Source of the DNA: Candidatus Hodarchaeota archaeon
Lineage (GTDB): Archaea; Asgardarchaeota; Heimdallarchaeia; Hodarchaeales; Hodarchaeaceae
Length of the DNA: 39,193 bases
Reading direction: 5' to 3'
Assembly: GCA_016839625.1 (NCBI GenBank)
Contig: JAEOTY010000212.1
Location: forward strand, 1-39,193
Under the pieces are notes generated by a model. The model saw only the letters and a program-made list of their open reading frames with translations, was not told where the DNA came from and did not search any database. Positions 7,640 through 37,855 of this stretch are shown piece by piece. Numbering within the stretch: the first letter of the stretch is position 1; every line of letters begins with the position of its first letter. Both the position numbers and the translations under genes were made by a program.

Positions 7640-7774
7640 CTAGTATTATATTCCAAAACCGAAAGATGTTTTAGGTGTTAGTGAGAGAAGGTGAGGGAAT
7701 TAACAAAAGCACACTAATGGGAGGCAATCTCAATTGTTAGTTAATATTAGCTGGAAGGATGAGTTGATAGGATT

Positions 7775-7846
7775 ATGAATAACATTACTCGTATCAAATT
7801 GAGCTTAGAAGAATTAAACTACTTAAACAGTAATAAACAACAGTAA
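7775..7846 (+). CDS. Possible 23-residue RHH-like mini-ORF
   Basis: ATG at 7775 opens a 23-codon frame ending just before the kinase gene. Its sequence MNNITRIKLSLEELNYLNSN resembles the N-terminus of the neighbouring kinase (KKRIQLDIETLKVLNEFKK), sharing R-I-x-L...E-x-L..L-N in register. It could be a truncated duplicate of the RHH-like segment, or coincidence. There is no strong SD. Confidence 0.2.
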   Translation: MNNITRIKLSLEELNYLNSNKQQ

Positions 7847-7864
7847 TGAACATCAAATAATCTG

Positions 7865-9055
7865 ATGATAGTGATGAAGAAAAGAATTCAATTAGATATC
7901 GAGACTTTGAAAGTTCTAAACGAATTCAAGAAACCTCCTCAACAATCGTATGATGAAGTCATTTCTAATTTAATATCTGATTTGAACGATGCTCTCATGG
8001 ATAATATTCTATTTAATGCCCTTATGGATTATCTTCCAGCCTCAGTGTACTTCAAGAACTGTGAAGGACGTCATTTAAAGGTATGTAAAGCCACACAGGA
8101 AGATTACAATGAAATATATTGCAAAAGACTCGGACTAGAACCTCAAGACATGATAGGAAAGACTGATGAAGAATTATATATGCCAGAGCTAGCAAAAATG
8201 AGTTTTAAGGATGATATTCACGTTATAGAATCGAAAAATGTCATTATTAATCGTGAGGAACATACACCACCTGAAGGTAGATATTTCTCGACAACTAAAG
8301 CACCTATATTTAATAAGAAAGGTGATGTGACTGGACTAGTAGGAATCACATATGACATCACAGCTCAAAAAGTCACAGAACAGGAGTTGAGAAAATCAAC
8401 TAAATCGTTGAGAAATTTGAGTGAGTCGTTAATGGTAGTTAATTCTATTTTACGACATGATATTCTCAATTATTTAACACAGGTTATCGGATTTTTGGAT
8501 TTGTATAAGATAAAAGGTGATGAATTCTATTTAGAACGTGTATATAACCCTGTTCAAAGAGCGGTCAGTCTTATAGATAAATTGGGAGAACTAGAGGAAT
8601 TAATTATTCAAGAGGAGCCATTAAAGCCGTATAATCTTAGAGAGGTATCGGAAAATGTTTTGAAGAATCTCTCATCTCCAACAGTGAAATCTAATATTGT
8701 TGGGCAAGGGATTGTCCTTGCAGATCAAGCCCTATTTTCAGTCGTTGAAAATTTAGTTAGAAATGCTATTATTCACGCTCATACAGAATCTATTGATTTA
8801 ATAATTAGTGAAATTGAGGATAAATACTGTGAATTAAAAGTTATCGATTACGGTTTAGGTATAACAGATCATATAAAAAGTAAATTATTCCAACCAGGCC
8901 TGAAATTTGGAAAGACAGGAGGGACTGGGTATGGTCTATATATTGTGAAGAAAATTATTCAACGTTATGAGGGAGAAATCAAAGTAGAAGATAATCTACC
9001 AAGGGGGACTATTTTTTCAGTAAAACTAAAGAAAGCAAACCTTAGTCGTTCCTAG
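7865..9055 (+). CDS. PAS-domain sensor histidine kinase with RHH-like N-terminus
   Basis: A soluble sensor kinase. Residues 1-40 (KKRIQLDIETLKVLNEFKK then SYDEVISNLI) look like the ribbon-helix-helix part of VapB/UPF0330-type antitoxins. A PAS domain with PAC motif covers ~48-170 (LPASVYFKNCEGRHLKVC; PIFNKKGDVTGLVGITYDIT). The dimerisation helix has LRHDILN with phospho-acceptor His198; the ATPase domain shows the N box VENLVRNA (Asn296/300), the D box VIDYGLGI (Asp328) and the G box GGTGYGLYIV (~352). No membrane helices, so it senses a cytoplasmic signal; PAS ligand unknown. No receiver protein is encoded in the window. A second ATG at 7874 is also possible as start. The kinase call is firm; the RHH reading of the N-terminus is tentative. 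Confidence 0.9.
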   Translation: MIVMKKRIQLDIETLKVLNEFKKPPQQSYDEVISNLISDLNDALMDNILFNALMDYLPASVYFKNCEGRHLKVCKATQEDYNEIYCKRLGLEPQDMIGKTDEELYMPELAKMSFKDDIHVIESKNVIINREEHTPPEGRYFSTTKAPIFNKKGDVTGLVGITYDITAQKVTEQELRKSTKSLRNLSESLMVVNSILRHDILNYLTQVIGFLDLYKIKGDEFYLERVYNPVQRAVSLIDKLGELEELIIQEEPLKPYNLREVSENVLKNLSSPTVKSNIVGQGIVLADQALFSVVENLVRNAIIHAHTESIDLIISEIEDKYCELKVIDYGLGITDHIKSKLFQPGLKFGKTGGTGYGLYIVKKIIQRYEGEIKVEDNLPRGTIFSVKLKKANLSRS

Positions 9056-9158
9056 TCAACATATTAATATTGAAAAATTCTAAGTTTTTGCTATAATCCA
9101 TAATTAATTGATTCTCATTTTATCACAAGAGTTGCTGAAAAAAAAGTTGGAGATGCAA

Positions 9159-9695
9159 GTGAAGAATAATCATTTGTTTATCAAACAAATTGCTAAATAC
9201 TCATTTTGGGCAAGTGAAAAGCTTAGTAAAAATCTTGAAAAACTTAGTGACGAGAAATTCAACCAGGATACCGGTTCAAAATTTGTTAACGATACTAAAT
9301 GTCCAACTTCATCTTTAAGATCCATGGTTGAGCACTGTATGATAGGATTGGAGTACGGTAGTTATATAATTAAGTGTTTGGCTTGGGATGAAAACGTTAC
9401 AATTCAGAATTACCGTCTGCTTACGAAAGAACAGTTACTAGGGCGATGGGTAAGGCAATATATAGAATTCAAACAATTAATATCAGATAATATTGGAAAA
9501 ACTGTACTATTTCATCAAGAAGAAATCTATCTAGGTAATGATTTCTTTTTTACCTTTTTCAATCATTTAACATACCATCTCGGCCAGTTCATGATCGCTA
9601 TGAAGATTGTTGGAGAAGATACTGTTGACCTTGATTATATGACATTTTTGAAGGAAATAAATAGTAAATATTTTGTTAGAAATCTCTCCACGTAA
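9159..9695 (+). CDS. DinB/YfiT-fold putative metal-dependent protein
   Basis: A four-helix-bundle protein of the DinB superfamily, whose members use a His triad to bind a divalent metal and include thiol transferases and hydrolases. The first His is in MVEHCMIGLEYG, the other two in NHLTYHLGQF, and the typical IAKYSFWASEKLSKNLEKLS opening helix is present. The start chosen is GTG 9159, with GGAG six bases upstream; an in-frame TTG at 9108 would add 17 residues without SD. It follows the histidine kinase on the same strand after ~100 bases, possibly as an independent unit. The reaction is unknown; archaeal members are poorly characterised. Confidence 0.72.
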   Translation: MKNNHLFIKQIAKYSFWASEKLSKNLEKLSDEKFNQDTGSKFVNDTKCPTSSLRSMVEHCMIGLEYGSYIIKCLAWDENVTIQNYRLLTKEQLLGRWVRQYIEFKQLISDNIGKTVLFHQEEIYLGNDFFFTFFNHLTYHLGQFMIAMKIVGEDTVDLDYMTFLKEINSKYFVRNLST

Positions 9696-10020
9696 TCTTA
9701 AAATGTTATGAGGTGTAACATTTGATATTGAGTGAACTGAGAGAAATTTAATGGAAAGGTCATATTTTAAAATTAAGTGACTACATAAAAGATCCATTAT
9801 TAGATTTACTTTGTTTAGAATTAAATTATGTTTCATTGATAGAGTTAGAGCTAATAAGGAGAAAAATTTGGCATTTAAAGGTGTAGAGAGGTTGTTAATG
9901 ATGCTGAAAGTTGTGAGAGACGAATTTCATGATTTGAAAGTTGTCTAGAGAGAATTCTATTAGAAGCTGATTTTGATAAAATTAGTTTAGCTAAAAATTA
10001 GTTAAAATTAGTTTAGCAAA
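9696..10020. other. Convergent intergenic region with dyad and direct repeat
   Basis: The spacer between two converging genes. An 8-bp perfect dyad (AAATGTTA 9701-9708, TAACATTT 9716-9723) directly follows the DinB stop and may be a 3' hairpin. A 14-base direct repeat AAAATTAGTTTAGC occurs at 9978-9991 and 10004-10017. A 26-codon TTG ORF with GGAG upstream lies at 9868-9948. Nothing else is recognised. Confidence 0.45.
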
Positions 10021-10416
10021 TTATAATGGTTCAGGAATTACTGCGATCACTTCAATCTCAATCTTTATACCCTTAATTGGTGAAAGAGCTTGAATTGTAA
10101 CACGGGCAGGTTTATATCCAGCCTTAAAAAATTCTCGATACACTTGATCCATTTTATTAAATTCTTTAACATCTTTCATAAAGACTGAAACCTTCACGAA
10201 ATCATCCATTGAAATCCCTGAAGATTCCAATAGAAATTTTACATTCTGCAATGTTTTTCGTGTTTGTTGTTCAATCGTTCCAAGAATAATATCACCAGTT
10301 TTCAAATCGCAAGATAATTGGCTAGTAAGAAATAAAAGATCCCCAGCTTTGACAACATGATTAAATGGACTTGTTGGACTCTTAACACCATCAATGGTAA
10401 CGATTTCTTTTCGCAT
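10021..10416 (-). CDS. ridA: RidA/YjgF/UK114 family enamine/imine deaminase
   Basis: A RidA-family trimeric protein that hydrolyses reactive 2-aminoacrylate and related enamines. The family motifs are FLTSQLSCD (residues 29-37), LQNVKFLLESSGISMDDFVKV-type helix, VFMKDVKEF and the closing PARVTIQA with Arg105, the residue that binds the substrate carboxylate, plus Glu122 in IEVIAVIPEP. Length is typical. A strong SD (AGGAGG) precedes ATG 10416. Its neighbour on the same strand is deoC, but a ~150 base gap with a T-run separates them. Confidence 0.93.
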   Translation of the reverse strand: MRKEIVTIDGVKSPTSPFNHVVKAGDLLFLTSQLSCDLKTGDIILGTIEQQTRKTLQNVKFLLESSGISMDDFVKVSVFMKDVKEFNKMDQVYREFFKAGYKPARVTIQALSPIKGIKIEIEVIAVIPEPL

Positions 10417-10543
10417 CCTCTAATCCTCCTTCATTTGAATCTATTCCGTGTTTCTGAAAACAGTCATTCCAGATTTGAAAAATCAAAATCATTTCGATTT
10501 AGAATTACTTTCTTTCTTTGGCGGTTATTCAAGTAAATATTTG

Positions 10544-10553
10544 AAAAAAAAAA
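10544..10553 (-). terminator. Oligo-T terminator downstream of deoC
   Basis: Ten consecutive A on the + strand, hence T10 on the minus strand, 16 bases beyond the deoC stop. It fits archaeal intrinsic termination and separates deoC from ridA. GAGCTTTTTTTTTT contains no evident stem. Confidence 0.5.
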
Positions 10554-10568
10554 GCTCTCAATACCCAT

Positions 10569-11282
10569 TTAAAACCTTTTTTTTGCTTCTTCAAGAATGG
10601 TCTCCGTTGCAGTTGCACCAATTCTTGTTACACCAATATTTTTCACTCTTAAAACATCATCAAGAGTCCGTATATTTCCCGCAGCTTTGACTTGAACCTC
10701 TTTTGAAATAGATTTCATCATCAATTTTAGATCGTAATCAGTAGCTCCTTTGTATGAATATTTACCGTTATCTCCTTTCACAAAACCAAAACCAGTAGAA
10801 GTCTTTACAAAATTGACTTTTAGCTCGCTACAGATCTCACAAAGCTTAATCTTAAAGTAATCAATGGGTAGAAAATCATTCTCAAATATGACTTTAACTT
10901 TCGCTTCAAAATTGTTAGCGACATCAATTATTGCACTTATTTCTTCTTTGACATACTGCCAATCTTCACTTAAAACTTTCCCAATATTTACAACTATATC
11001 TAATTCAGTGGCACCATCTTTACAGGCTTTTTCCGCTTCAAAAGTTTTAACATCTATTTGGCTACTCCCATGGGGAAAGCCAATTACGGTTCCGATACAA
11101 ACATTGGAATCCCTTAGTATCTCAACAGCTAGTTTCACTGAATATGGTTTTATGCAAACGGAAGCAACATCATATTTCTTTGCTAGTTTACATCCTTCAA
11201 TTAATTCTTCGTCTGTTAGCGTTGGATGTAGAAGGGAATGATCAATCATTTTAGCAATTTCTACTACAGTAGTCATTTCCAT
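10569..11282 (-). CDS. deoC: Deoxyribose-phosphate aldolase
   Basis: A class I aldolase (EC 4.1.2.4) that splits 2-deoxyribose 5-phosphate into acetaldehyde and glyceraldehyde 3-phosphate, linking nucleoside breakdown to glycolysis. Key residues counted from ATG 11282: ELDIVVN (Asp95), FVKTSTGFG with the Schiff-base Lys160, and QVKAAGNIRT with Lys199; the usual second Gly of AAGG is Asn here. Other family signatures are IGFPHG and IDHSLLHP. Length ~237 is normal. A TTG codon directly before ATG could also be used. A short ORF lies just upstream on the same strand. Ribokinase and a nucleoside-type deaminase elsewhere in the window fit nucleoside salvage. Confidence 0.95.
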   Translation of the reverse strand: MEMTTVVEIAKMIDHSLLHPTLTDEELIEGCKLAKKYDVASVCIKPYSVKLAVEILRDSNVCIGTVIGFPHGSSQIDVKTFEAEKACKDGATELDIVVNIGKVLSEDWQYVKEEISAIIDVANNFEAKVKVIFENDFLPIDYFKIKLCEICSELKVNFVKTSTGFGFVKGDNGKYSYKGATDYDLKLMMKSISKEVQVKAAGNIRTLDDVLRVKNIGVTRIGATATETILEEAKKRF

Positions 11283-11285
11283 CAA

Positions 11286-11860
11286 TACTCTTAAAATAAA
11301 TCTTTTCTTATATAAGTAGCTTAATCATTCTTTTTAAACGCTTAATAGAGTCTGACAATCCTTTTGGACGATTTCTTTGTAACTCTAGTTCCCGATGACG
11401 TTCAATTAACTCACACAAGGTTTTAGTTGGATTTGATTAAACCTCCAGACACTAATCATTAATCAAAACTCTTTTTTTTTTATTGAGAACCTTACTAATC
11501 TCATAAAGCTTGTTTTAATGATTACAGATTCATTATAAGGCAGGCATTCTAATCACGATAATCAATCAAAAATCAAAAAATTATTATGTTTTTTGAATGG
11601 TTAAAAGTCTTAATTTTAGAAGTACTGACATAAATATTAGTAATACTTAATTCCAACATTGTAAATTTCGACATTAGACTTTGACTAAGCCATTATGGAA
11701 AAACTAAGCAAAAATAAGATTTTCATATTAGATCTTAAATTGAATAACTCACTGCTTCCATATAGATGTATCAATGAGAAAAACATAAATGGTCTTATGA
11801 GAGAGGAATTAGTACAAATTATATAACAATAATAATATGCCTTGTGGATGTTTCGTTTAG
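11286..11860. other. 575-base intergenic region with a short coding-like stretch
   Basis: Between deoC (minus) and a plus-strand gene. It contains a minus-strand coding-like short ORF (11308-11418), a T10 run on the + strand at 11472-11481, and AT-rich remainder. No RNA gene recognised. Confidence 0.45.
11308..11418 (-). CDS. Possible short charged ORF or gene remnant upstream of deoC
   Basis: A 36-codon frame opened by TTG at 11418 (an in-frame stop lies seven codons upstream). The sequence CELIERHRELELQRNRPKG followed by LSDSIKRLKRMIKLLI is rich in Glu, Arg and Leu, unlike the surrounding AT-rich noise, and would form an amphipathic helix. GGAGGT occurs about 25 bases upstream, in the right strand but too far, and a different frame opens right next to it, so a frameshifted remnant of a longer gene is possible. 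It ends 22 bases before deoC on the same strand. Confidence 0.25.
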   Translation of the reverse strand: MCELIERHRELELQRNRPKGLSDSIKRLKRMIKLLI

Positions 11861-12553
11861 ATGGTGAAACTCTTTAAGAAAGCCGCGCACGACCAAAAAA
11901 AATCATTTAAGTTCAATGCCTCCCTAAATTTAAAAGATCTTTCTCTTGAGGAATACGCGCATGTCATTCACGCATTTCAGAAGTCATTCTCTCAGTTAGA
12001 TCAATTATTGAAAGAATCCCTGATAGAACAATATATATCTTACCCTACTTTTGATAGAATTTCTCAAGAATTAAAATTAGTGAAGCTAAAGAAGAGCAAG
12101 ATCCCAGAGGTGCCCTCCATAAAAGCATTGTTTGGCTCCAGACTTACAGTCGACCTTGACACGAAAGAACCTATAGATATTCCTTCAAAAACGATACTAA
12201 AAGCTGCTTCTGCAAAAACATCTCCAGTTTCACCTACATCTCCTCCACCTAAATCCCCTTCTCCTTCCTCTCCAAGTCCGCTACCAGTCTCACAGACGTC
12301 CCCTCCCTCTCGACCACCCTCTCCACCACTCTCTCCCTCTGTGCCTTTACCATCGTCTCCGACCCCTGAGAAGACTGTTCAACCTCAGATTAGTTTTTCT
12401 GATGATGTTTCTGTTCCAGATGCAGTGAGTAGTCCCCTGGGCCATTTTAAACAACTTAGGGAAGATGATCGTGCCACAGGAATAGCTATTCTGCGACAAC
12501 AAATGTCGGAAGAACTCAAAAAAATCAGACAGATGATTCCAGACCAAGACTAG
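11861..12553 (+). CDS. Hypothetical protein with Pro/Ser-rich central linker
   Basis: A 230-residue protein of unknown function. The N-terminal ~95 residues are Lys-rich and helical (LKDLSLEEYAHVIHAFQKSF, LIEQYISYPTF). Residues ~118-170 are almost entirely Pro and Ser (with a few Thr), including many PxxP-type segments such as PPSRPPSPPLSP. The C-terminal ~40 residues form a conserved-looking amphipathic helix (DRATGIAILRQQMSEELKKI). No signal peptide or membrane helix, so cytosolic. The linker probably separates two interaction modules. The coding strand of the linker is strikingly pyrimidine-rich. GTGGATG upstream is a weak ribosome site. It converges on the CxxC protein gene. Confidence 0.75.
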   Translation: MVKLFKKAAHDQKKSFKFNASLNLKDLSLEEYAHVIHAFQKSFSQLDQLLKESLIEQYISYPTFDRISQELKLVKLKKSKIPEVPSIKALFGSRLTVDLDTKEPIDIPSKTILKAASAKTSPVSPTSPPPKSPSPSSPSPLPVSQTSPPSRPPSPPLSPSVPLPSSPTPEKTVQPQISFSDDVSVPDAVSSPLGHFKQLREDDRATGIAILRQQMSEELKKIRQMIPDQD

Positions 12554-12598
12554 TATTCAGTAAACAATTTTCTCTTTTCCGAAGAATTGTATGTTTCT

Positions 12599-12976
12599 TT
12601 ATCTTTTTCCATTTATTATGAGTGGACATTCAGCTAAACTCTGAATTACATCTTGGATTTTTCTTGAATTTTGCACCATTTGAGTAAAAATCTTTTCAAG
12701 ATCTCCTATTGGCATATTTTTCTCTATTGAGATCTGTGTTTCAACTATATCAAAACAATATCTTCTTCTTACTCGTCCTTCGATGTCAATATGCAAAGCA
12801 AGGATATGCTCTTCTTCCGCATGCTGCATGGCTTTGGCAATGAGTTTATGCTCTTGTTTTGCTCTACTAATCTCAGATTCGGATATTAAAATTGATTCTT
12901 CTTTACCACAAAGAGGACATGTAGTTTTAGCTATTATGCCTTTCGATTCTTGGTTCATCATACCGTTTTCCCTCAT
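12599..12976 (-). CDS. Small CPxCG zinc-binding hypothetical protein
   Basis: A 125-residue protein beginning with one CPLCG knuckle (Cys-x2-Cys, residues ~20-23), then helices with EISRAKQEHKLIAKAMQHAEEEH and a strand pair HIDIEGRVRRRYCFDIVET. Only one CxxC pair is visible, so zinc could be completed by the downstream His or by dimerisation. ATG 12961 (sixth residue) with GAGGG ahead may be the true start. No family name recognised. The gene tail-to-tail neighbour is the Pro/Ser-rich protein; both look cytosolic and could be adaptors. Confidence 0.7.
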   Translation of the reverse strand: MRENGMMNQESKGIIAKTTCPLCGKEESILISESEISRAKQEHKLIAKAMQHAEEEHILALHIDIEGRVRRRYCFDIVETQISIEKNMPIGDLEKIFTQMVQNSRKIQDVIQSLAECPLIINGKR

Positions 12977-13167
12977 TTCAATAAGGAAAATTGAATTTAT
13001 GTCAATATTACATCATTCAGAATTCCCCTAGCTTTGTTTCATTTATAGAAACAAGAACTTTTCAATCTAACAAGAAGTTTCAATTTTTCATTTACCATAG
13101 AATATCAGTTTTTATTACGGGTATTTTTATAAATTAACACGCTTCTCAATGAATTTCGGAAATAAAA

Positions 13168-13782
13168 ATGTCACCTTGGTTTTGGATCAGTGTACTGGCC
13201 GAGTTAGCAATACTACCGATTTATTTTTTGTCCCTAGAGCATACAAAATTACAACAAAAATATGGTCTCGAGAAAGGAAATAAGATTGGAGATGCTCTTG
13301 GGCTTATTTCAGGTTGGGGATTTTTTCTTTTCTTATTTGGAATATGGTTGTCACCCCAGCCAAGATTTACAATACCGATCCTTCAAGAATTGTCGTTCAT
13401 AATTCCAATTATTGATTTTCCAATACCGTTGGTTCATCTAATTGTTTTTGTGCCTATTATCGTCGTGGTGTTGTGGATTGCTCTCAAGGGTGTGGCAGAA
13501 GTGACCTTAAAGGTAGCTGAAACACATAGAGCAGAAAAAGTCGTCACAACAGGTATTTATTCGGTCATCAGACATCCACAATATCTTGGTTCATTATTAG
13601 CACACTTGGCGATTTCCATATTACTTTCTGCATTGTATTCATTGCTTTTGACACCATTATTGATAGTATATATTTATCTCATTGCGTGGAAGGAGGAAAA
13701 AGAGTTAGTTAAAGAATTTGGGCAAGAGTATGAAGAATATCAAGGAAGAGTGCCTATGTTCATTCCAAAATTGCGAAAATAA
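13168..13782 (+). CDS. ICMT/NnrU-like membrane methyltransferase family protein
   Basis: A polytopic membrane protein of the isoprenylcysteine carboxyl methyltransferase / phospholipid methyltransferase superfamily. Several membrane segments (residues ~4-22, 47-63, 77-108, 143-172) lead to the conserved cofactor region: VVTTGIYSVIRHPQYLG (RHPxY motif) and, after a helical hairpin, WKEEKELVKEFGQEYEEYQ with the Glu-Glu and Y-x-x-Y features that bind SAM. Substrate could be a lipid, a prenylated protein or a small thiol. A second, shorter member of the superfamily lies at 25514-26029. Confidence 0.85.
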   Translation: MSPWFWISVLAELAILPIYFLSLEHTKLQQKYGLEKGNKIGDALGLISGWGFFLFLFGIWLSPQPRFTIPILQELSFIIPIIDFPIPLVHLIVFVPIIVVVLWIALKGVAEVTLKVAETHRAEKVVTTGIYSVIRHPQYLGSLLAHLAISILLSALYSLLLTPLLIVYIYLIAWKEEKELVKEFGQEYEEYQGRVPMFIPKLRK

Positions 13783-33742: not shown

Positions 33743-34645
33743 TTGGCTGTTTTGACCATTGATGAGTGGTTAGTTATAATAATCGGATTTATTTCGTTAA
33801 TTCCTTCTTTTATATTACTCAAACAATACATCAAAACATCTATTGTTGATTTCTTATTATTTTCAGGAGTTTTCTTCTCTGTCACTGCTACATGCTTCAG
33901 CTCGATTTTTGCAGACGCTACTAATATTTTATTTTTCTTTCAGCTTCATAGATGGGCTCTTGTCTTCACATTTTTATTCTTCTTTCTTCATGGATCTCGT
34001 ATTCTGTGGACACGAACTCCGACAGTTATTTGGTATATTGGTATCATTTGGTTTGCCATCCTAGTTTTTTTAATTTTATTTTGGGAAATTATACCTCAAG
34101 AAGATACAGCATTTGTATTATTCATGGAAATGCCTCACGGCCCAAATCAATTTCATCCTAAAGGTGCTGGACTCAAGACACCTGGTGGAGTCATTCTTAA
34201 CTCTTCAAGCCATAGGCTCCTTTCAGACTTGTACTCACTTTATACAGCTGGTATTCTTGGATATACTTATATTAAGATCAAACCTATACATCCGACTAAG
34301 AAAATAGTCATTACGAAGAGACTTTGGTTAATTATATGGAGTTTAGTTTTTGTTTATGGGATCCTTGGTCTTCCCTGGGTATTTCATTTTTTGAGTTCCA
34401 TAATATCTTCGTTTTCAACGATTCGTTTCTTATTAATTCTAATTGCTGAAGTTTTATCTGCATTTATTGCAATTATGATACCCGAATCCATGCTCATTTC
34501 TCAAACACAAGTCCTGAGAGCTCAAAAGCTATATAAACAGGTCCAACAGTTTCATTCAAAGCAAGAAATTAAAGAATTTGGAATGGAGTCCTTAGTCGAA
34601 TACCTGAAGCATATTCCAAAAGAGGCAATGGCCGTAGAGAAATAA
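33743..34645 (+). CDS. Seven-helix membrane protein of unknown function
   Basis: A 300-residue hydrophobic protein with seven predicted membrane helices (e.g. VIIIGFISLIPSFILL, FLLFSGVFFSVTATC, WALVFTFLFFFLHGSRIL, VIWYIGIIWFAILVFLILFW, LWLIIWSLVFVYGILGLPWVF, FLLILIAEVLSAFIAIMI) and a charged cytosolic tail (SKQEIKEFGMESLVEYL). An MPHGPNQFHPKG loop sits between helices 4 and 5. It is TTG-initiated with AAAGGAG. No family recognised; the seven-helix plan resembles archaeal 7TM sensor/histidine-kinase-less proteins, but no ligand or kinase motif is present. Confidence 0.75.
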   Translation: MAVLTIDEWLVIIIGFISLIPSFILLKQYIKTSIVDFLLFSGVFFSVTATCFSSIFADATNILFFFQLHRWALVFTFLFFFLHGSRILWTRTPTVIWYIGIIWFAILVFLILFWEIIPQEDTAFVLFMEMPHGPNQFHPKGAGLKTPGGVILNSSSHRLLSDLYSLYTAGILGYTYIKIKPIHPTKKIVITKRLWLIIWSLVFVYGILGLPWVFHFLSSIISSFSTIRFLLILIAEVLSAFIAIMIPESMLISQTQVLRAQKLYKQVQQFHSKQEIKEFGMESLVEYLKHIPKEAMAVEK

Positions 34646-34755: not shown

Positions 34756-36369
34756 TTATCTCCTTTTTTTCTTCACTTTTCCCAGAACAAACGAAAATAT
34801 GGCAAGAACGATAAAGATGTATTCAAATCCTAAAAAATCCGTTGAACCAGTTGTAATCCTTGATTTTACCTCTTCAAGATATGCATCAATAGTTAAGCGA
34901 AAGATAAATCCATCTTCATTTCCACCACAGGTTTGTTGATATGCGTCATCAGAGGTAAAGAAATTTGTTGAAGTAGTGTAACCTACAATATAGAGATAAT
35001 CATCGGAAAGAAATTGACTAAATGGATGATCATTATTTGTTCCTCCAAGGAATGAACAGAATAATGGTTGGCCAATAGAGGATAGGGCCATGACCACGAT
35101 ATCACATGCTCCCTTGTGACCCTCTTGAAAAGCATTGGAAATTGGAAAACCATCAGCTCCACCTACTCCACTTAAGATTATATTGTCATCAGAGTCCACA
35201 TCTACATGATGTAGTGTATCCCATCCTGATGCTCCAAAATAGCTGGAAAAGGTTAATTTCTGACCATCAGGACTGAGCTTCGATACAAATGCATCTACTT
35301 CAACGTCAGAATATTCATCCTGATAAGCATTTGCTACTGGAAAATCAGCTGACCAAGTCCTACCAGAAAAAATGATATTTTTCGAGGAATCGATGGTTAA
35401 TCCGAAAGAATCATCCATATGTGAACCACCAAAGAAAGTGGCATATGTTATTTGACCAGTTGACGTATGTTTTCCTAGGAAGATATCACGTTGAGTTCCA
35501 CTTATTGAATCTTGGAAGGCGTTGTTTGTGATTGGAAAGTTTGAACTGGATGTTGTACCATCAAAAAATATATTGTCTTCTTCATCGATAGCAATCTTAC
35601 CTAGTGAATCATGGTCAGATCCACCAATAAAGGTTGAATACAAGATGGAAGTGCAATTAGGTGTCAGTTTCAGGATAAATCCATCTGATCCTCCTCCAAA
35701 AATTGATTGGCAAGCATCCGTTGTAATAGGGAAATCGGGAGAGGAGGTTCCGCCAGAAATGATTAGATTGTTAGATGAATCTAATTTGAGGTCATCAACA
35801 CCCTCTGAACCGTCAGTTCCCAGATAGCTTGAGTATAACAATGACCCGTTAGGCGCAAATTTCGTTACGAAGAGATCTAAACCTCCTCCATTGAAATTTT
35901 GTTGATAGGCATCCTCTGTGATAGGAAAATCTATTGAGTTTGTCATACCAGCCACATAAATGTTACCAGAATCATCAGTTAGCACACAATGACCACCATC
36001 ACGATTTGATCCTCCCAGAAATGTTGACCAAATAAGATCTCCATTTTGGTTGAATTTACTAACAATAGCGTCTCCGCTGACGGTATGGATTTCTTGATCC
36101 CCTCCTGCAAAAGTCTCTTGAAAACCATTTACTACTGGAAAATTGGTGGATAGAGTTTCACCAGTAACAATAACATTTCCTTCTGAATCAATAACCACGT
36201 CTTTGATATAATCAACATTATTTCCTCCAAAGAAAGTACTATAAGAAAAATCTTCGATTTCGATCTTGTTTAACTTACTTTGGCCTGATACATAAGTAGT
36301 TCTAAAAACAAAAACACATCCGATCAGGAGTAGAATAGTTAATATTCGTTTTTTGCTATTACATTTCAT
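34756..36369 (-). CDS. SBBP-repeat beta-propeller surface protein
   Basis: An exported seven-bladed beta-propeller of the SBBP type. After a signal peptide come seven repeats, each of about 55-60 residues, with the pattern (Y/W/F)STFxGG...D...D..GN.I..GxTxSxxFP (for example WSTFLGGSNRDGGHC, YSTFIGGSDHDSLGK, YATFFGGSHMDDS). The propeller ends in one membrane helix (LGFEYIFIVLAIFSFVLG) with a KVKKKRR tail. Displayed outside the membrane, perhaps for adhesion, glycan or protein binding. GAGGA precedes the ATG. The upstream minus-strand gene encodes a membrane-anchored wHTH regulator. Confidence 0.9.
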   Translation of the reverse strand: MKCNSKKRILTILLLIGCVFVFRTTYVSGQSKLNKIEIEDFSYSTFFGGNNVDYIKDVVIDSEGNVIVTGETLSTNFPVVNGFQETFAGGDQEIHTVSGDAIVSKFNQNGDLIWSTFLGGSNRDGGHCVLTDDSGNIYVAGMTNSIDFPITEDAYQQNFNGGGLDLFVTKFAPNGSLLYSSYLGTDGSEGVDDLKLDSSNNLIISGGTSSPDFPITTDACQSIFGGGSDGFILKLTPNCTSILYSTFIGGSDHDSLGKIAIDEEDNIFFDGTTSSSNFPITNNAFQDSISGTQRDIFLGKHTSTGQITYATFFGGSHMDDSFGLTIDSSKNIIFSGRTWSADFPVANAYQDEYSDVEVDAFVSKLSPDGQKLTFSSYFGASGWDTLHHVDVDSDDNIILSGVGGADGFPISNAFQEGHKGACDIVVMALSSIGQPLFCSFLGGTNNDHPFSQFLSDDYLYIVGYTTSTNFFTSDDAYQQTCGGNEDGFIFRLTIDAYLEEVKSRITTGSTDFLGFEYIFIVLAIFSFVLGKVKKKRR

Positions 36370-36657
36370 ATTGTAGTCCTCGTTATATTTTAAACCTTGT
36401 TTTTGGCTCTATTGTTGAAGTACTCAGACAATTGTAGCCTACAATCTATGTAAAGAGAAAAAGAAATGATTAAAATATTGAAACAGTATTTTCTGTTTGT
36501 GAACTATTTTTTCAATTCTCTACAATAGCTAAACATGGTTCTAGGTATTGTAATTCTCTAACTATTTGAGTAAATTCTTAATTAACTGTTTAAATAGTAA
36601 AAATACATGTGGAATTTAAATCACTATGATTTCGAGATGATAGATTATCTATACTCT

Positions 36658-37818
36658 TCAATTTAGAGAGTATTCATCTAATCCATTTTGCTTTTCTTTG
36701 AGACGATTAATTGTAACTCTTAATGCGTTATTCAATATAGATAGAAAAGAAAAACCTTTTGTTGTTATCTTGAAATTTCTATACCGTCCATCTTGAATAA
36801 CTTGAGTTGATACATATGATTCTACATATTGTAAATCCACAAGCTTCTTAATTTCTTTAGAAAGAGTTGAGGGTGGGATATTCAAACTTTTAGCTAATTT
36901 AATAGGATTAGTTTCGCTAGGATCTTGGTAAGCTATTTCTATCAGTGTTAGAACCGTTCTACCTTTTATTTCAACTCGCAGATCATTTCTTATATCAGAT
37001 GGGAAATACTCTGCCATCGAATTGACCATTGTTGGAGTCTCTAAGCTAGGTAAATCATGTGATTCCTCAATAAATCCATGTCCGATGTTATCCAATCCAA
37101 TAACTACTTTCTCTCTAATAGATTTCAGAAATTCGATTTTTTTGGACTCGAAAAAGTCTATGAAGCTCTTCTCTTTGAATTTAACACTATAGACTAAATA
37201 ACCAAGGCCACCACTAAAGGTTATAGAAAGAAGACCAATAAATGGTAAAAATAAATCCTCCAAGTCAAGATAAATCTCTGAAGGCGTTGAATTAATACTT
37301 CTATTATCAATAGTAAAAGTGCTTTCTGAAATATCCACCTTGTCCTCCCAATTTTTGCTTGTTGCTACAATTTTTATCAAGAAATTAGTTCCAAATGTCT
37401 CATATAACGATGTATTCCAGTTATAGCTTGTCTCAAAAATAGAAAATGCTATTTGAATCCAATTTGATCCAGCATTTGGAGAATAATAAACATTATACAC
37501 AGGAGTATCGTTTATTTGTTCAAGAACAAGAGTCCAATGAATTAGAACCTCTCCTGATAATGTTTCTCCACCATCGGGACTAATTATTTCTAAACCATTT
37601 GATTGCCAAATTTTAAATGATCTTTTCTTTGTAGTTATTCCAAAACTCTTCTGAATGAAATGTGAATCATCTATCGTCACACTAGCATTGTTCTTTTCTA
37701 TTTCTAGAGAAATATTTTCATTTTCATTTAAGGATAAAGCAAAATAACCTATTAAATTTATGTTTCCCAAAAAAAAAGCAAAAACAATACAAAAAAATAA
37801 CTGACTTTGTTTTTTCAT
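36658..37818 (-). CDS. Membrane-anchored winged-helix regulator with Ig-like sensor domain
   Basis: A single-pass membrane protein joining an outside sensor to a DNA-binding domain. An N-terminal hydrophobic signal/anchor (residues ~6-30) is followed by an extracellular beta-sandwich resembling Kre9/KNH-type or fibronectin-like modules (IISPDGGETLSGEVLIHW; VYYSPNAGSNWIQIA). A membrane helix (FLPFIGLLSITFSGGLGYLVY, 190-210) and linker lead to a cytosolic winged helix (285-358; NPIKLAKSLNIPPSTLSKEIKKLV, then GRYRNFKITTKGF). This is a one-component transmembrane regulator of the CadC-like plan, but with a MarR/ArsR-like wHTH. It precedes the SBBP surface-protein gene on the same strand, a likely target. 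A palindromic AGATATATATCT lies ahead of its start. Confidence 0.82.
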   Translation of the reverse strand: MKKQSQLFFCIVFAFFLGNINLIGYFALSLNENENISLEIEKNNASVTIDDSHFIQKSFGITTKKRSFKIWQSNGLEIISPDGGETLSGEVLIHWTLVLEQINDTPVYNVYYSPNAGSNWIQIAFSIFETSYNWNTSLYETFGTNFLIKIVATSKNWEDKVDISESTFTIDNRSINSTPSEIYLDLEDLFLPFIGLLSITFSGGLGYLVYSVKFKEKSFIDFFESKKIEFLKSIREKVVIGLDNIGHGFIEESHDLPSLETPTMVNSMAEYFPSDIRNDLRVEIKGRTVLTLIEIAYQDPSETNPIKLAKSLNIPPSTLSKEIKKLVDLQYVESYVSTQVIQDGRYRNFKITTKGFSFLSILNNALRVTINRLKEKQNGLDEYSLN

Positions 37819-37843
37819 TTAGATTTATATGGATTTTATTCCC

Positions 37844-37855
37844 AGATATATATCT
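37844..37855. promoter_or_regulatory. TATA-like box inside a 12-bp palindrome
   Basis: AGATATATATCT is a perfect 12-bp palindrome, 26-37 bases upstream of the membrane-wHTH start codon. The TATATA centre fits an archaeal TATA box, so the palindrome may also serve as the regulator's own operator. A TA-rich palindrome can also arise by chance. Confidence 0.4.

Follow-up and report, generated by a model that had tools for sequence, protein, structure and literature searches.

A genus-level family of predicted membrane-bound winged-helix regulators in Asgard archaea, with linked surface-protein genes and a candidate 22-bp operator

Introduction

Could an archaeal cell pass a signal from its surface to its DNA through a single protein that spans the membrane? 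Asgard archaea are the closest prokaryotic relatives of eukaryotes, and to our knowledge little has been learnt about how they relay outside information to their DNA. The question is raised by a two-gene locus in a 39,193-nucleotide stretch of DNA (hereafter the window) from a 4.8-Mb metagenome-assembled genome of a Hodarchaeales-type member of the Heimdallarchaeia (G000), in which the gene for a predicted membrane-spanning winged-helix (wHTH) regulator lies beside that for a surface protein.

In the bacterial regulators ToxR and CadC, an N-terminal OmpR-type wHTH lies inside the cell, followed by a single transmembrane (TM) segment and a C-terminal sensor outside, and for ToxR a genetically linked partner, ToxS, is known. 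Transmembrane transcription regulators (TTRs), which join a DNA-binding domain and a TM segment in one polypeptide, occur in bacteria and archaea, with single-pass forms the commonest (Demey et al., 2023; PMC10269533); that survey does not use the word Asgard in its main text. The ArnR and ArnR1 proteins of Sulfolobus acidocaldarius are membrane-bound one-component regulators of the HTH type that bind to inverted repeats (TCGAC-N5-GTCGA) at a surface-appendage promoter; ArnR begins with its HTH, continues with a putative HAMP and sensing region, and ends in two TM segments (PMC6396743).

Results

The features of the locus, in which the regulator gene comes first on the minus strand and the surface-protein gene follows after a gap of 288 bp, are these:

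36658-37818, minus strand: regulator gene, 386 aa (predicted signal peptide, Fn3/Ig-like ectodomain, TM helix, juxtamembrane helix, MarR-like wHTH)
34756-36369, minus strand: SBBP partner gene, 537 aa (predicted signal peptide, beta-propeller, C-terminal membrane anchor)
36370-36657, minus strand: spacer between regulator and partner, 288 bp (candidate operator, promoter, GAGG)
36486-36507, minus strand: candidate operator, the 22-bp dyad ATAGTTCACAAACAGAAAATAC, at -138 relative to the SBBP start
36469-36479, minus strand: TATA-like, A/T-rich box AATATTTTAAT, a short way downstream of the dyad
37844-37855, no strand assigned: palindrome AGATATATATCT, centred 31 bp upstream of the ATG of the regulator gene

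An earlier note on this DNA had placed an exported SBBP propeller gene directly downstream of the regulator, and this is what we find: both open reading frames have the coordinates listed above and lie on the same strand, and the partner matches Pfam PF06739 in three stretches at 62.7 bits (cut-off 20.5), which makes it an SBBP-repeat protein. Proteins 45–55% identical to it adjoin orthologous regulators. The spacer also holds a GAGG ribosome-binding-like site at 36378-36381, and the A/T-rich box is the probable core promoter of the SBBP gene. No Rfam element was found within the window. A neighbouring open reading frame on the plus strand (33743-34645; 300 aa, about eight hydrophobic segments, no Pfam match) is, as far as tested, unrelated to the module.

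Hydropathy gives the regulator two hydrophobic segments, at residues 7-25 and 191-209. An AlphaFold2 model built from 14 aligned relatives (mean pLDDT 72, pTM 0.43) has an N-terminal helix, a beta-sandwich (76-171), a TM helix (186-214), a juxtamembrane helix (228-246), a wHTH (about 286-351) and, at 353-384, a long C-terminal helix. In Foldseek searches the beta-sandwich matched Fn3-type domains, and the best structural matches of the cytosolic part were MarR proteins such as MepR and ZitR, with probability 1.0 and target TM-scores mostly of 0.50–0.56 (maximum 0.66); matches by sequence in the PDB were also mainly of MarR type. Proteins of the MarR family bind palindromic operators. MepR and ZitR are soluble, and the regulator scores below both Pfam MarR cut-offs (18.7 against 24.6 for PF01047, 17.0 against 27 for PF12802), falling short of the curated score for the family. 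No OmpR-type Pfam match was found in the regulator, its wHTH matches being of MarR type.

Glycosylation sequons number six before the TM segment and none after it in this regulator, and across 14 family members there are 139 in 4904 aa before it versus 10 in 2455 aa after it. Within 15 residues of the TM segment the regulator has no Lys or Arg on the outer side and three on the inner, and these residues are more numerous after the segment than before it in 11 of the 14 members. Because of this distribution of sequons, the positive TM flank and the N-terminal signal segment, the wHTH most likely lies inside the cell, a placement resting on computed indicators with which the AlphaFold2 model agrees. 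The layout that had been proposed, with an Ig-like domain outside, one membrane helix and a cytosolic wHTH, thus survives in its order and topology, but the sandwich resembles fibronectin type III more closely than it does a classical Ig domain. The ectodomain may act as a sensor.

The shared TM and wHTH part defines a family present in 9 of 12 genomes of the same genus; named relatives that carry it are records called Hodarchaeum mangrovi, Heimdallarchaeota and Hodarchaeota. It also occurs in a single genome from a different family (G057), where the locus sits on a 4-kb contig that may be contamination. Nothing else close to it was found in the 228 Asgard genomes searched, and we regard the family as a genus-level expansion. 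In the scan of named genomes, a single regulator protein as query returned nothing and an alignment of the wHTH returned 14 loci. At least six copies of the regulator occur in G010, a single-contig genome. Identity to the window regulator ranges from 42 to 61% across TM and wHTH and from 49 to 75% across the wHTH itself, which is highly conserved, recognition helix included. Ahead of this common part stands a single Fn3-like domain, a NosD-type beta-helix, a beta-helix with an Fn3-like domain (in regulators of up to 1144 aa) or, in forms with two TM segments, almost nothing outside; on the evidence of these sequences, the ectodomains are interchangeable.

One relative, L054 (141 aa), consists of the wHTH only. 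At its locus (7648-13481 in G002) two beta-helix/Fn3 membrane proteins of 757 and 908 aa follow, each with a cytosolic domain of about 150 aa after the TM segment, in what looks like a split version of the regulator system. L053 was rejected as a wHTH-only relative, its gene being interrupted by consecutive Ns in the sequence record. Distant matches in other Asgard families were likewise set aside, as they are mostly soluble TPR-wHTH or PAS-wHTH proteins that have only the wHTH in common with the family; the protein at L106 (3156-4484 in G195), for instance, is a PAS-domain protein with a related C-terminal wHTH and no membrane ectodomain. Apparently a separate case of the same outside-TM-wHTH plan is L099 (1440-3494, plus strand, in G041, of another Heimdallarchaeia family), a 684-aa protein with an FG-GAP repeat ectodomain, one TM segment and a C-terminal wHTH. 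In the tree, regulators associated with SBBP and with LVIVD proteins form a supported clade. The regulators of the two-TM LVIVD module at L047, L049 and L050 (G006, G002 and G000) are near-identical, with branches of 0.005–0.06, and the G003 copy lies far from them, a pattern that points to a module either exchanged recently or strongly conserved.

At 17 of the 20 same-genus loci (the window and L036-L054), and also at the G057 locus, the regulator gene is followed on its own strand by a surface-protein gene, immediately or, at L039, after one small membrane protein. The two-gene module that the earlier note described is thus a real feature of the genus, with a wider set of partners than the SBBP proteins first named: SBBP propellers at six loci, LVIVD propellers at five, beta-helix proteins at four and other exported proteins without family assignment at two. 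The exceptions (L040, L043 and L044) have very large beta-helix ectodomains, with neither an adjoining surface partner nor a good dyad nearby. Under a strict automatic rule, by which a surface protein has an N-terminal hydrophobic segment and a C-terminal TM segment, the partners of 10 of 19 regulators pass, versus 15 of 316 other genes (4.7%); by independent groups, counted by hand with L097 added, 9 of 15 pass (binomial p about 5e-9). The rule misses partners that are at contig ends, broken or mis-started, such as those of L042, L038 and L037. A frame break divides the SBBP partner at L038 (9567-11159 in G001) into two open reading frames, and its tblastn match contains one TGA.

In the beta-helix modules, the ectodomain of the regulator is homologous to an adjacent surface protein (31–36% identity); at L051 the homologous surface protein is the second gene downstream. 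No such homology was found in SBBP pairs, unlike the beta-helix modules, and the regulators of SBBP and LVIVD modules have an Fn3-like domain or almost no ectodomain.

The spacers share a 22-bp dyad with the consensus RTASTTTC-N6-GAAASTAY, which in the window lies at 36486-36507, inside the spacer that the earlier note had also named as a possible binding region. Because the dyad was first spotted by eye in the spacers, it was tested in three ways. First, de novo discovery of palindromic motifs scored 197 across 13 independent spacers, versus 148±7.5 (maximum 170) in 60 dinucleotide shuffles. Second, when each group was left out in turn, a site was rediscovered with p<0.06 in 11 of the 13 groups (combined p about 2e-14), and with the window held out the best site in its spacer was 36486-36507 (p=0.006). 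Enrichment of the core TTYC...GRAA is confined to the spacers and to centre lengths of 5 or 6 bp. The window copy is among the weaker ones, with an imperfect left arm, and its offset of -138 from the start of the surface gene recurs at L036 and at the orphan L108. By eye, an A/T-rich TATA-like stretch follows some 6–16 bp past the dyad in most related spacers. The L054 group lacks a clear N6 dyad, as does the L052 group, in which a variant with a longer centre can be made out by eye. No dyad was found upstream of the regulator genes themselves. Common ancestry of the paralogous modules could account for part of the conservation of the motif.

The dyad also stands before surface genes with no regulator beside them. 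In the third test, three close orphan SBBP genes, one in G010 and two in G003, none of them used in the motif search, had sites scoring 18.2, 16.2 and 14.4 at -138, -131 and -74. An orphan LVIVD-like surface gene in G010 has an 18.2 site 78 bp upstream. This strong dyad precedes two tandem LVIVD-like surface genes at about 905.0-907.5 kb (L134, L157), near which the family searches reported no wHTH-family match. Five distant SBBP genes had no site above 6, and an orphan LVIVD homologue in G000 had no dyad site. Genome-wide, a strict form of the dyad pattern was hardly commoner than its reversed control (14 sites versus 11). A second pattern, applied to G000, G003 and G010, had its top sites before the SBBP module, two orphan SBBP genes and the orphan LVIVD-like gene, with further top sites before a 12-TM protein and a 114-aa open reading frame, and its intragenic matches scored 13.2 or less. 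With the strict pattern near background and intragenic scores of the second at that level, a large genome-wide regulon was rejected. Since the dyad also precedes surface genes that lack an adjacent regulator, we suggest that regulators of this family probably govern a small regulon of surface proteins, in which the neighbouring gene is the dominant member. At L136 in G010, a site at 1501 (score 18.9) lies 18 bp upstream of the 12-TM gene (1540-2763), a possible further target.

Discussion

We suggest that the locus pairs a membrane-bound one-component regulator with the surface gene that it targets, a reading that we put at about 75% for the link between regulator, dyad and surface gene. Pointing to it are the domain order, the topology indicators, the linkage, the exchange of ectodomains and the presence of the dyad both beside regulators and before orphan genes, all of which can be read in the sequences. 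The Fn3-like ectodomain would lie outside and a single helix would cross the membrane, and the MarR-like wHTH in the cytosol, probably dimeric through its C-terminal helix, would bind the 22-bp dyad before the next gene. Still held in the membrane, the regulator would change transcription of the surface gene directly, perhaps activating it by helping TBP/TFB, with repression also possible. Given the link itself, activation is somewhat the better guess, because the dyad sits just upstream of the A/T-rich promoter box. As to the stimulus, the homology between ectodomain and adjacent surface protein in beta-helix modules hints that the regulator could sense its own partner or related surface proteins, making each module a self-monitoring switch; we consider this a speculative extension.

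The main mechanistic rival is regulated proteolysis, in which a stimulus would lead to cutting of the ectodomain and a soluble wHTH fragment would act on the dyad, both at this locus and at sites far from it. Such a fragment would reach the orphan targets elsewhere in the genome more easily, and in one relative, L054, the wHTH is all there is; membrane regulators of the ArnR type, however, act on several promoters (PMC6396743), and we regard release as unlikely. Less likely again is that another, soluble factor binds the dyad and that the membrane wHTH protein is merely co-located and has a different role. The four orphan genes with a dyad and no regulator beside them, the three close SBBP genes and the LVIVD-like one, would fit it, as would G003, where two SBBP genes bear dyads and no regulator was found other than one of the two-TM LVIVD type. 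Against this, dyad and regulator occur together in 11 of the 13 independent groups, with varied partners, and the wHTH is as conserved, down to its recognition helix, as expected for a shared operator.

Descent without function, by which an ancestral regulator-surface pair was duplicated and spacer and dyad were simply inherited, finds some footing in the near-restriction of the family to one genus and in the clade that unites SBBP- and LVIVD-associated regulators. It is very improbable: outside the dyad the spacers of different groups show no obvious similarity by eye, the partners come from unrelated families, and the symmetry of the dyad is kept, also before orphan surface genes. Weakest of all is the suggestion that the palindromic TATA region at 37844-37855 is an operator for autoregulation of the regulator, for although the palindrome is perfect and near the start codon, the window holds 13 perfect 12-bp palindromes in all, such a palindrome turns up in 12% of shuffled versions of the intergenic region around it (P=0.12), its position suits a TATA box, and related regulators have no matching upstream palindrome by eye. 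With its centre 31 bp before the ATG, as for a leaderless transcript, it is more probably the regulator's own TATA box, and as an operator it was rejected.

The regulator fits the broad TTR class, with a predicted DNA-binding domain (from the AlphaFold2 model and wHTH profiles below cut-off) and a TM segment (from hydropathy) in one protein, the former cytoplasmic by the computed indicators; that it may influence transcription from the membrane is hinted at indirectly by the conserved dyad before the partner gene. It differs from what the TTR survey describes in carrying its wHTH at the C-terminus, after a signal-peptide-like segment and an ectodomain that can be exchanged, in the pairing of its gene with one for a surface protein, and in the candidate operator that the modules share. 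Like ArnR and ArnR1, it is an archaeal regulator proposed to act from the membrane on an inverted repeat at a surface gene, but it does not have the ArnR-family architecture: its order is reversed (ectodomain-TM-wHTH), ArnR has no comparable extracellular domain, and operator and targets differ. With ToxR and CadC it shares a single TM segment, a wHTH predicted to lie inside and a putative sensor outside; it lacks the architecture of that family too, as its orientation is the inverse, with the wHTH C-terminal, and the tests made gave no homology. Its partners carry the repeats of known propeller surface proteins, SBBP (PF06739) and LVIVD (PF08309), but in the literature searched we found no account of their genes being linked to one for a membrane wHTH protein and sharing a dyad. 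Nor did that literature, scant for subscription journals and preprints, hold an earlier description of the family, the partner linkage, the operator or this architecture in Asgard archaea.

The outcome is a defined family of membrane-to-DNA regulators with likely targets and a candidate 22-bp operator, which can be tested in vitro without culture. If the regulators do monitor their own partners, the parallel modules of a genome such as G010 would let the cell choose between a propeller and a beta-helix coat. The finding may also bear on what had to be abandoned in eukaryogenesis, since regulation by a DNA-binding protein tethered in the membrane would be unworkable unchanged once a nucleus parts the membrane from the genome.
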